Shown piece after piece: positions 7,813 through 12,724 of a DNA stretch of 56,205 nucleotides. The position numbers were made by a program, and so were the translations under genes. Origin of the DNA: Treponema sp. (GTDB lineage: Bacteria; Spirochaetota; Spirochaetia; Treponematales; Breznakiellaceae). The notes below the pieces were generated by a model that worked only from the letters and a program-made list of their open reading frames with translations, did no database searches and was not told the DNA's origin. The stretch is from the NCBI GenBank assembly GCA_031278715.1, contig JAITJW010000056.1:1-56205 (forward strand), given 5' to 3'. Every line of letters starts with the position of its first letter. Position 1 is the first letter of the stretch.

Positions 7813-9078
7813 ATGGCGGAGATAAGGACGGATTTCAGGTCGATATTGGGTCTTGATTCGGAGCTGAGCCGTATTCAAGACGTAGACCTGTTGCTGGAAC
7901 GGATCCTTTTGGAAGCCCGAAAAGTAGTTCGCGCCGATGCGGGTTCGATTTATGTCATAGACCGGGGCAAGGACCAGCAAGGTGCTGAAAAAAAGCTGGT
8001 CATCAAATACGCTCAAAACGACACTTCCCAAAAAAGCCTTCCTGCAGGCCGAAAGATGATCTACTCGGTGTTGTCGGTTCCCATCAATGAGAAATCCATA
8101 TCGGGCTACTGCGCCCTGACCCGGAAGATCATCAATGTGCCCGATATGTACGATATTCCGGCCACCGCTCCCTATTCCTTCAATTCCAGCTATGATCAAA
8201 TTTCCGGTTACAGAACCATTTCGACGCTTACGATCCCGCTGGTTACCGCGGATTCAAGGCTTTTGGGGGTTATCCAGGTTATCAACTCCAAAGATGAGAA
8301 CGGAAACGTGATTCCGTTTTCCCAGGAAGATGAGTTCCTGATCACCCATTTCGCCTCAAACGCCACCACCGTCCTGCAGCGGGCCTACGCTACCCGTGCC
8401 ATGATTCTGCGGATGATAAAAATGTCCGAGCTTCGGGACCCCAAGGAAACCGGAACCCACGTAAACCGGGTGGCGGGCTATGCAGTGGAAATTTACGAGC
8501 GGTGGGCCTACCACCACGGCGTAAGCGACATGGATCGGGAGAAAATCCGGGATACCCTGAGGGTAGCCGCGATGCTCCACGATGTGGGGAAGGTGGCAAT
8601 TTCCGATCTCATCCTGAAAAAACCGGGCCGTTTTACCCAGGACGAATATTTGATCATGCAGCACCATACCCTTTACGGCGCCGGGTTATTTGATGACCCC
8701 CAATCGGAGATGGATAGTATCTGCCGGGACATCGCCCTGACCCACCACGAGAACTGGGACGGCACCGGCTACCCCGGCTGGATCGATCCGCTGACCGAAA
8801 AGCCCATTAAGATCGATGCCGAGGGGAATGTCCTGGGCAGGGCAGGGGAGGAAATTCCCCTTATGGGCCGCATCGTGGCCCTGGCCGATGTGTACGACGC
8901 GCTCTGTTCCAAACGGGTGTACAAGGATCCCTGGCCGGAGGATAAGGTACTCACGGAGATTCGCAGCCTTACGGGTATCAAATTCGATCCTGAACTGGTG
9001 GATATTTTTTTTGAGGTACTTCCGAATATCAAACAGATCCAGGCTATGTACCCCGAGGCGGAAGCGGATTTAACTTGA
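7813..9078 (+). CDS. GAF/HD-GYP domain protein, probable c-di-GMP phosphodiesterase
   Basis: 421 residues, cytoplasmic. An N-terminal GAF sensor domain (about residues 15-185; VRADAGSIYVIDRG, LLGVIQVINSKDENG) is followed by an HD-GYP domain (about 200-400) with HVNRVAGYAVEIY, AAMLHDVGKVAISD, HHENWDGTGYPG and GRIVALADVYDALCSKR. The HD pair and the GYP motif are intact, so hydrolysis of cyclic di-GMP, and in some family members cyclic GMP-AMP, is expected. The ligand of the GAF domain is not readable. Its 3' end overlaps the convergent DUF188 gene by 35 bases. A TAAGGAT ribosome site precedes the ATG. Confidence 0.93.
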   Translation: MAEIRTDFRSILGLDSELSRIQDVDLLLERILLEARKVVRADAGSIYVIDRGKDQQGAEKKLVIKYAQNDTSQKSLPAGRKMIYSVLSVPINEKSISGYCALTRKIINVPDMYDIPATAPYSFNSSYDQISGYRTISTLTIPLVTADSRLLGVIQVINSKDENGNVIPFSQEDEFLITHFASNATTVLQRAYATRAMILRMIKMSELRDPKETGTHVNRVAGYAVEIYERWAYHHGVSDMDREKIRDTLRVAAMLHDVGKVAISDLILKKPGRFTQDEYLIMQHHTLYGAGLFDDPQSEMDSICRDIALTHHENWDGTGYPGWIDPLTEKPIKIDAEGNVLGRAGEEIPLMGRIVALADVYDALCSKRVYKDPWPEDKVLTEIRSLTGIKFDPELVDIFFEVLPNIKQIQAMYPEAEADLT

Positions 9079-9508
9079 CCAGCAGCCGGTCCAGGCTGTT
9101 TGCCATCATTCTGATTTCCTTTTTGCCGTACGAGGGGCTCCGCTCCCCGCCCAGGCCCTTATGCGCCAGGTCCACAATAAAATTCCGCAGGGAAAGCCGT
9201 TCCCGGATATTCTCCCCGGTGTAGACATTGCCCCGGTCGTCCATGACGGCAAGGTCCCGCTCCACCAAACGCGCCGCCAGGGGTATATCCCTGGTAATGA
9301 CCAGGTCCCCCGGCCGGGCCAGTTCCACGATGCGGTCGTCCGCTGCCCCCTCCTCCGGCGGGCAAAGTTCCATAATCGCGTCCCCCTGCAGTCCCGGTAT
9401 GGAACGGTTGGCTACGAAAACCACGGTAAGGCCGCAGCGCTTTGCCGCCCTCATCACCAATTCCCGTGCCACACGGGGACAGGAGTCCGCATCTACGAAG
9501 ATCTTCAT
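9044..9508 (-). CDS. YaiI/YqxD family protein (DUF188, PIN-like)
   Basis: 154 residues with the family signature at the N-terminus (MKIFVDADSCPRVARE) and, further on, PGDLVITRDIPLAARLVE, VMDDRGNVYTGENI and YGKKEIRMMANSLDRLL. The family has a PIN-like fold with conserved Asp residues, all present here, which suggests a nuclease role that is not proven. It follows the ZapA-ManA fusion gene by 26 bases and is probably the last gene of that operon. The final 35 bases overlap, tail to tail, the end of the HD-GYP gene. Confidence 0.92.
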   Translation of the reverse strand: MKIFVDADSCPRVARELVMRAAKRCGLTVVFVANRSIPGLQGDAIMELCPPEEGAADDRIVELARPGDLVITRDIPLAARLVERDLAVMDDRGNVYTGENIRERLSLRNFIVDLAHKGLGGERSPSYGKKEIRMMANSLDRLLVKLNPLPPRGT

Positions 9509-9534: not shown

Positions 9535-11079
9535 TCAGTGGCCCACCGGCGCGGGAATGGACGCGGCATAGAGGGTGTACGTTCCCGAAAATACCGGCAT
9601 GTCCGGCTGTGGGGGGATAAAAGCCGATTCCCCAGGTCCCAGTTCCCAGGAAGCGCCGGTTTCATCGGAAGCCTGGAGGCGGCCTGCAATGACGATAACG
9701 ATAACCGGGACCTGGATGGGAAAGGGACCTTCAAAATTCCGGATAAGTGAAAGGGAAAATTCCTTACAGGGACTTGGGTAGGTAAAAAAAACGGGGCCCG
9801 GCGGCTCTGTTTCGGGGGGCGTTTTCAGCAGTTCCGGCATAAAGGGGTGGAAATACAGGACGTTCATAAGCTCGTTTACGTCCACATGCTTGGAACTGAG
9901 GCCGCAGCGGAGTACGTTATCCGAATTGGCCATCAGTTCCACTCCAAAACCGTCCACATAGGCGTGGAGTATCCCGTCGGGAAGGTAGATAGCCTGGCCG
10001 CTTTCCAGATGGATCAGGTTGAGGTAGAGGGGGGCCAGTATCCCCGGATCCCCGGGGTAGAGTTCCGCAAGTCGCCGGATCAGGGAGCATGTATCGTCAT
10101 CGATCCCCCAAGGGATCCTGCTCAGTGTAGAAGCGTAGGCGCTTAGTTCTTTTCTAAGTTCCCTGGACAGATTGAACAGGCCGGCAAGGAAATCCCGCAA
10201 GGGCAGCCGCGATCTTCCAGCGGTATTTTCAAGGGAATCCTGCAGGGGAGCCAGGCCATACTGCAGGGAACGCGGGGCCCCGGCAAGGAACGCACTAAGG
10301 AGCGCAACGGTGTCGCCCGGAGAACGGAAACCGCAGAGGGCGGTAAAAGGACTAAGGGCGCAGATGATCTCAGGCTTGTGGTTATCGTCCTTGTAGTTCC
10401 GTTCCGGAGCGTCAAGATCTATACCCTGCTCGTTTTCCCGCTGCCAGCCCTGCCGGGCCTGTTCCTTACCGGGGTGGGCCTGGATAGACAGGGGCCGGGC
10501 CGCGGCAAGGAGCTTAAACAGGAAGGGGAGGCCGCCGAAATTCGCCGCCCCTTCTTTTCCCACATAGCGGGGGGGATCGGCGGCGATAAGCTGTGCCAAG
10601 CTCTTTTTCCCGGGCCAGTCTTTTAGCATTGAAGGCGCCGAAGGATGTACACCCATCCAGAGTTCCGCCCAGGGCTCCCCGCCGGGGTTCTCACGGCACA
10701 GTAAGCGGGGTATCCAATGGGGGGATCCCCATTCGTAGTGTTTTACCGAATTTTCAAGCAGGTACAGGGCCTGGAGGACCTGCCCGTCTTTTTCAAAGGT
10801 TTCATCCAGCCGGGCTATAAGGTTCAATGTCCGCCGCAGTGTTTCTTCTTTTTCCGAAATATCACCGGACTCCTGTTTTAGCTTGTGAAATTCGTCGCAG
10901 AGCAGGAAGCCGGTTAGAATGGCAATTTTTAGGGGATCCTTGAGCCCGGTTGTTTTTTGCACATCCAGAACCCTGGCGTAGTATTCGCTGAGCAGTTTTT
11001 CCAGATAGGGCCCTTCCTCATCCGCGGTTATCGTAAAGGAAGCGCCAAGAATTTCAAAATGCAGATTACTCTTGGGCAT
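9535..11079 (-). CDS. manA: ZapA-like domain fused to mannose-6-phosphate isomerase (type I)
   Basis: One frame encodes 514 residues. Residues 1 to about 98 resemble ZapA, which crosslinks FtsZ (HFEILGASFTITADEEGPYL; DPLKIAILTGFLLCDEFHKL; then a heptad-rich helix). From about residue 103 a complete ManA begins (LYLLENSVKHYEWGS). It carries zinc-site segments (QAHPGKEQA, HKPE, LPDGILHAYVDGFGVELMANSDNVLR) and runs to the C-terminus at normal length. ManA interconverts mannose 6-phosphate and fructose 6-phosphate. I found no ATG, GTG or TTG in frame near the junction and no Shine-Dalgarno that would allow separate ManA translation. The start itself lacks a Shine-Dalgarno and lies 6 bases after the preceding stop, suggesting coupling. 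A sequencing or assembly indel that removed a stop is the alternative. Confidence 0.9.
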   Translation of the reverse strand: MPKSNLHFEILGASFTITADEEGPYLEKLLSEYYARVLDVQKTTGLKDPLKIAILTGFLLCDEFHKLKQESGDISEKEETLRRTLNLIARLDETFEKDGQVLQALYLLENSVKHYEWGSPHWIPRLLCRENPGGEPWAELWMGVHPSAPSMLKDWPGKKSLAQLIAADPPRYVGKEGAANFGGLPFLFKLLAAARPLSIQAHPGKEQARQGWQRENEQGIDLDAPERNYKDDNHKPEIICALSPFTALCGFRSPGDTVALLSAFLAGAPRSLQYGLAPLQDSLENTAGRSRLPLRDFLAGLFNLSRELRKELSAYASTLSRIPWGIDDDTCSLIRRLAELYPGDPGILAPLYLNLIHLESGQAIYLPDGILHAYVDGFGVELMANSDNVLRCGLSSKHVDVNELMNVLYFHPFMPELLKTPPETEPPGPVFFTYPSPCKEFSLSLIRNFEGPFPIQVPVIVIVIAGRLQASDETGASWELGPGESAFIPPQPDMPVFSGTYTLYAASIPAPVGH

Positions 11080-11085
11080 GGCAAA

Positions 11086-11562
11086 CTAAAAAATATCAAG
11101 CTCGCCGGAGGCCGAAGCATCCTGAGAATCTTCGAAAGGACCTTCTTCCGCATCTTCCACTCCCTCAGGCTCCAGTCTTTCGATCTCCCCGGTATCCGCA
11201 GACACCGGGCCGGCCTCCGGCAGGACGGAAACCGGGGGTGGGGGAGGGCTTTCTTTTTTCCGCTCCGGCGCCCGGTTTTCCCGGTGGGGCGGAAGGCCCG
11301 GTTCGGGTGGAAGGGAGGCGATACTTTTTTCTATGGCATCCTCGAATTTGTTCAGCCGATCCAAAGCGGAGAGGATACCCTCTTCGATACGGCCCTGATC
11401 TTCCCTGAACTTTTGGATTAGGACCTCAAGTTCATCAATACGCCTTTGATACGAATCAAGCTTCCCCTGGAGTTGGGAATTTTCCCCGGAGATCCGTTCC
11501 ACATATTCAATGGCCCGGGCCACTTTTGTTTCCAGCAGCTTGACCTGTTCAAGGGTTATCAT
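11086..11562 (-). CDS. ZapB-like coiled-coil protein, probable cell-division factor
   Basis: 158 residues. The first 90 form a near-continuous coiled coil (MITLEQVKLLETKVARAIEY, then QLQGKLDSYQRRIDELEVLI). The rest is a disordered Pro/Glu-rich tail with RAPERKKESPPPPP and acidic clusters ending in ASGELDIF. The N-terminal pattern resembles small ZapB-type proteins. Its place directly before a ZapA domain supports a divisome role, since ZapA and ZapB bind each other in E. coli. It follows rplT by about 35 bases. The short acidic C-terminus could be a partner-binding peptide; that is speculation. Confidence 0.75.
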   Translation of the reverse strand: MITLEQVKLLETKVARAIEYVERISGENSQLQGKLDSYQRRIDELEVLIQKFREDQGRIEEGILSALDRLNKFEDAIEKSIASLPPEPGLPPHRENRAPERKKESPPPPPVSVLPEAGPVSADTGEIERLEPEGVEDAEEGPFEDSQDASASGELDIF

Positions 11563-12205: not shown

Positions 12206-12724
12206 TTATTTTTTGGCCTTGGGGCTTACTACCATAGACATAAACCGTCCTTCCATAGCTGGAGATTTATCCATCACATACTCCCCTTCCAGCCGGGCCA
12301 GGACATCCTTAAGGACCTCCAGTCCCAATTCCGTGTGGGCAAGTTCACGGCCCCTAAAACGGACTGTTACCTTGACCTTATTACCTTCGCCAAGGAATTC
12401 ACGTACATGTTTGGATTTGAAATCCAAATCGTGCTCGTCAATTTTTGGCTGCATCCGGATCTCTTTAAGTTTGAGCAATTTCTGCTTTTTCTTGGAATCC
12501 CGAACCTTTTTTTCGTTTTCGAATTTGAATTTGCCGTAATCCAAAATCTTGACTACCGGCGGATTGGCCTGAGGGGCCACCTCCACCAAATCAAGGCCCA
12601 GACTCTTGGCCATTTCAAGAGCTTCCAGAGTACTGAGAATCCCCTGCTGCTCACCTTCGTCCCGAATGAGGCGTACCTCCCTCACCCGGATTTGTTCGTT
12701 TATCCTTAAATCCTTATCCGACAA
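12206..12724 (-). CDS. infC: Translation initiation factor IF-3 (TTG start)
   Basis: 172 residues. The N-terminal domain shows [14 protein letters not shown] and [17 protein letters not shown]. The C-terminal domain shows [20 protein letters not shown] and the [17 protein letters not shown] motif. IF-3 keeps the subunits apart and checks the start codon. The start I infer is TTG at 12724, with GGAGGAGG four bases upstream. A non-AUG start is notable because E. coli infC uses AUU to sense IF-3 level, so similar autoregulation is possible. A GC hairpin precedes the ribosome site. Confidence 0.96.

Follow-up and report, generated by a model that had tools for sequence, protein, structure and literature searches.

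The window, that is, the whole analysed stretch of 56,205 nucleotides from Treponema sp., carries on its minus strand a single open reading frame at 9535–11079 (514 codons plus a stop; calculated mass 56.9 kDa; residues numbered from the ATG at 11079) in which zapA is joined to manA, the gene for a type I mannose-6-phosphate isomerase. On the same strand, the gene order is infC-rpmI-rplT-zapB-zapA(-manA), and a similar order was found at loci L194, L195, and L199. The first three genes encode IF-3 (12206–12724, PF00707/PF05198), ribosomal protein L35 (11990–12190, PF01632), and ribosomal protein L20 (11597–11956, PF00453). The original prediction had placed a zapB-like gene upstream of the fusion, and the minus-strand gene at 11086–11562 indeed matched PF06005 (43.9 bits, cut-off 31.5), with its stop 6 bases before the zapA start. 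A YaiI/YqxD (DUF188) gene lies directly downstream on the minus strand (9044–9508, PF02639). A plus-strand gene at 7813–9078, encoding a protein with GAF and HD domains, is convergent with the zapB-zapA-manA cluster, and a similar GAF/HD gene adjoins the fused gene in L199.

Profile matches agreed with the original prediction of ZapA followed by ManA in one frame: PF05164 at residues 7–86 (39.5 bits against a cut-off of 23.8), PF20511 (PMI_typeI_cat) at residues 107–252 (108.7 bits against 22), and TIGR00218, the NCBIfam manA equivalog, at residues 105–492 (215 bits against 116.2); a match to NF011710 (PRK15131.1) stayed below its cut-off (288 against 571). The ZapA domain was assigned to residues 1–99 (10783–11079, minus strand) from PF05164 and the predicted fold, and the ManA domain to residues 106–514 (9538–10764, minus strand) from TIGR00218, the active-site alignment, and the model. 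The junction between them, at about residues 100–105 (10765–10782, minus strand), contains no stop and no ATG, GTG, or TTG; it reads ...LDETFEKDGQVLQALYLLENSVKHYEWGS..., and the ManA core starts a few residues past the last ZapA helix. In the structure model of the whole fusion, which showed two domains with a mean pLDDT of 90 (lower in the ZapA part), residue 99 is the last of this helix, and residues 106–109 form the first strand of ManA. The claim that ManA has no ordinary start of its own also held, ATG, GTG, and TTG being absent from codons 86–141 of the fused frame. The last such codon before ManA is a TTG at codon 85, within ZapA, which is not kept as a start codon in the three closest relatives; the next standard start is the ATG at codon 142, within ManA.

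ZapA is a crosslinker of the FtsZ ring. The model of the ZapA domain consisted of a hairpin (strands at residues 4–10 and 13–19), helices at residues 23–44 and 49–70, and a long C-terminal helix at residues 76–98. The top nine PDB matches in a fold search were all ZapA (2mmv, 4p1m, 9isj, 9isk, 1t3u, and 1w2e); the best had an E of 6.5e-4 and was the sole one below 0.001, with a high rmsd. Confidence in this model was moderate, with a pLDDT of 77 for the domain alone and blocks of 57–65 around residues 61–100 in the full model. The domain also retains positions that do not vary across 30 ZapA sequences, fused and separate, such as L11, G12, E21, Y25, P49, and L50. The window ZapA is not a stand-alone small protein, since it continues in frame into ManA, and it is better named a ZapA domain in a fusion than an ordinary ZapA. 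The ftsZ gene is present in the window's genome, and by analogy with ordinary ZapA the domain is expected to form oligomers and to bind filaments of FtsZ.

ManA interconverts fructose-6-phosphate and mannose-6-phosphate. Residues Q200, H202, K235, E237, H372, and R391 of the fusion align with the metal/active-site positions of Salmonella PMI, namely H99, K132, E134, H255, and R274, plus the Gln two residues before H99. On alignment to the Salmonella enzyme, none of the six positions varied in any of the proteins compared (23/23 fused, 88/88 separate); decay of ManA in the fused genes was rejected on this ground. The ManA part of the model matched PMI structures with an E of 4e-39. Next to the catalytic Arg, at residue 392, the motif reads VLRCGL in the window, L003, and L004; in L005 and the consensus of the family it is VLRGGL. 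In comparisons of the four closest fused genes, dN/dS was 0.19–0.31 for the ManA half and 0.13–0.26 for the ZapA half (pairs where defined), values that are rough because synonymous divergence is locally almost saturated. The window ManA is thus predicted to be a catalytically competent, Zn-dependent mannose-6-phosphate isomerase and looks functional. A link between sugar-nucleotide supply and division had been proposed from the fusion, but a GDP-mannose pathway was not established: the match to a GMP/PMI-family nucleotidyltransferase in the window's genome fell below the curated cut-off, and two PGM/PMM genes were found. A GDP-mannose route is possible in this genome, and a catabolic role for ManA is equally open.

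The original prediction had allowed that an indel removing the zapA stop would look the same as a fusion, and the window does sit in a genome of 213 contigs, where an assembly or sequencing error in the metagenome assembly could have this effect. Alignment to close relatives showed fused rather than separate genes in L003, L004, and L005, the three closest matching genomes, all of the same genus (76, 72, and 66% identity). Their junctions differ from that of the window by gaps of whole codons only, a pattern not expected of a read error common to separately assembled species. L010, a more distant fourth member of the genus, is also fused, with a longer linker, and the single-contig genome G034 (3,855,671 bases; locus L199) carries both genes in one 550-residue protein. 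The three fused relatives and G034 refute the indel for the window locus; we regard an artefact as extremely unlikely and the fusion as virtually certain to be a genomic fact. The relatives' records are mostly metagenome-assembled "Treponema sp." and "Spirochaetaceae", plus "Spirochaetia bacterium", and by our own reading they come from termite guts. Two proteins might still be made from the fused gene, through cleavage of the linker by a protease or through translation starting at a nonstandard internal codon. Consistent with this are the CTG codons at positions 105 and 107, the wide variation in linker length between fused lineages, and the ManA start of the distant fused gene L114, where a G-rich stretch precedes a retained in-frame ATG (CCGGGGGGCCCT). 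A hidden internal start in the window's gene was nevertheless disfavoured, as neither the TTG at codon 85 nor the CTG at codon 105, which reads CTC in L005, is present in all relatives, and synonymous divergence at the junction was not clearly depressed. Production of two proteins is therefore unlikely in our judgement, and the fused gene very probably gives one bifunctional polypeptide. In L114 itself, ManA might also be made alone, because this ATG is kept at its start.

A total of 111 non-redundant loci with both halves were compared, a set that is not random because long open frames were fetched deliberately; 23 were fused and 88 were separate, with a stop and a start. The separate pairs often overlap by 4 to 8 bases. 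In a tree built from both proteins with the junction left out, the fused and separate states changed 8 times under LG+G4 (at least 7 forced by supported branches) and 7 times under the PMSF mixture model (at least 5 forced), compared to about 21 changes with shuffled labels; this is a gene tree, on which gains and losses are not separable. The fused groups on the LG+G4 tree were the window group, L007, L006, L023/L139, L113, L022/L040/L041/L073/L127/L133, and L011/L019/L114/L131/L136/L138/L140. Linker length ranged from a few residues to about 60 across the fused lineages, and fused clades persist over divergent species, the window group reaching down to 66% identity. As judged from these sequences, the joining of zapA and manA recurs on several separate gene-tree branches in spirochaetes related to Treponema, and this recurrence suggests that ManA may be carried to the division ring. 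The genome bin G152 contains two different zapA-manA fusion genes, L126 on contig C307 and L133 on contig C20, which reflect either true duplication or the mixing of two strains in the bin. The 850-residue open frame of L029 was considered as another ManA fusion and rejected, its extra part being, by eye, a shadow frame of the kinase-like gene beside manA.

Neighbouring gene pairs served as controls. Neither zapB-zapA nor rplT-zapB was fused at any of 109 loci (0/109 each); the zapB-zapA control is imperfect, because no overlap between the two genes occurs at any of these loci, which makes them less easily fused than zapA-manA. The uppS-cdsA pair of the window overlaps by 4 bases; when the two were joined into one query and searched against 200 genomes of the family, no stop-free read-through appeared among the matches listed. 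At least about 15 spanning matches were listed, every one with stops, and the control rests on these spanning matches, as distinct from two-part ones. Outside the window's family (f1), no stop-free spanning zapA-manA match was found among the matches listed from 393 genomes of the phylum and 394 of the order. The two genes also lie side by side in another family of the order (f3), being adjacent yet separate in genomes G482 and G556, and stop-free fusions occurred only in the window's family among the matches listed. In L194 and L195, also of f3, zapB-zapA-manA lies behind rplT with the genes separate. Because the separate cluster is present there, it is probably older than the fusions.

The proposed starting state is such a zapB-zapA-manA cluster, in which zapA and manA would lie side by side or share a few bases; once the stop of zapA and the start of manA were lost, the two would be read as one, and this probably happened more than once in the window's family. 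A snapshot of this origin is shown by the fused L113 and its close relative L155, in which the genes are separate: relative to L155, L113 lacks one base around the ATGGCTGA overlap, and neither the ManA ATG nor the ZapA stop (TGA) survives.

This pair also fits neutral operon fusion, in which the stop/start overlap is lost by chance, the halves remain independent, and the tether has no function. The genes were already adjacent and often overlapped by a few bases, so that small changes would fuse them, and most of the family is unfused. Weighing against it, several independent-looking zapA-manA fusions stand beside none at 109 loci for zapB-zapA and rplT-zapB and none among the listed uppS-cdsA matches, although zapB-zapA, never overlapping, is the harder pair to fuse; the fused clades have also lasted across divergent species. 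We give the neutral account slightly less than an even chance. It concerns the purpose of the protein rather than its existence and is compatible with the fusion, a bifunctional protein, and delivery to the Z ring. Fusion could also have been followed by loss of function on one side, reducing ZapA to a module that only oligomerises ManA, or ManA to a noncatalytic appendage of ZapA, and either state could arise in this way. However, the window's genome (G000) showed a single zapA and a single manA, both at the fusion locus, and a search for further copies found none, although a second manA could have been missed, as the assembly of 213 contigs is 84% complete. Purifying selection on both halves, the intact ManA active-site residues, and the retained invariant ZapA positions likewise make such a loss very unlikely, and both halves look functional from their sequences.

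These data are best read as a bifunctional ZapA-ManA protein through which ManA reaches the FtsZ ring, a reading that we consider likely. The N-terminal ZapA would oligomerise and bind FtsZ filaments, with the C-terminal ManA carried along. Since no second zapA or manA was found and there is no ordinary internal start, ManA is probably produced only in the ZapA-tethered form, a share of which would sit on the Z ring at a presumed fixed 1:1 stoichiometry of ZapA to ManA. An enzyme placed C-terminal to ZapA is expected to ride the Z ring, a step we infer from E. coli ZapA (PMC12754632), and recruitment of ManA by the fusion is accordingly probable. A regulatory or supply function of ManA once it is there seems doubtful to us, and that ManA activity or its substrate state modulates Z-ring assembly is speculative. 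Similarly doubtful is a coupling of metabolism to division, in which septal ManA would report or supply fructose-6-phosphate/mannose-6-phosphate and alter Z-ring assembly or septal envelope synthesis, covalent tethering having been repeatedly selected in the family. The tether is not needed in this family, because most relatives keep the genes separate. The recurring fusion of an FtsZ-ring protein with a central sugar isomerase hints at a functional reason for producing ManA together with the division machinery and perhaps at its site, and a natural covalent ZapA-ManA fusion makes this a directly testable case. Why manA should belong to the infC-rpmI-rplT-zapB-zapA cluster of these spirochaetes in the first place is a further question.

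The literature searched, with most subscription journals outside its scope, yielded no paper that describes a ZapA-ManA fusion. Both parts belong to known families, and their combination is a new architecture. The ZapA half has the same domain and fold as ZapA of E. coli (4p1m), Klebsiella (9isj/9isk), Pseudomonas (1t3u), and Geobacillus (2mmv), and as 1w2e, with zapB adjacent in the window; stand-alone ZapA has roughly 85–110 residues, whereas the last ZapA helix of the window precedes an enzyme of about 410 residues. The ManA half shares about 34% identity over the whole enzyme with Salmonella ManA (2wfp/3h1m), together with the fold and the metal/active-site residues. Stand-alone ManA begins at a Met of its own that precedes the first strand by a few residues, whereas the window ManA follows ZapA directly and has no start codon. 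Metabolic enzymes that act on FtsZ are known in UgtP of B. subtilis (PMC5889556) and OpgH of E. coli (PMC3723540), which are separate proteins that respond to nutrients at the division apparatus (PMC5889556, PMC3723540). The likeness to them, a sugar-metabolism enzyme at the division apparatus, is an analogy of logic and not homology; in contrast to UgtP and OpgH, the link to an FtsZ-binding protein in the window is covalent.
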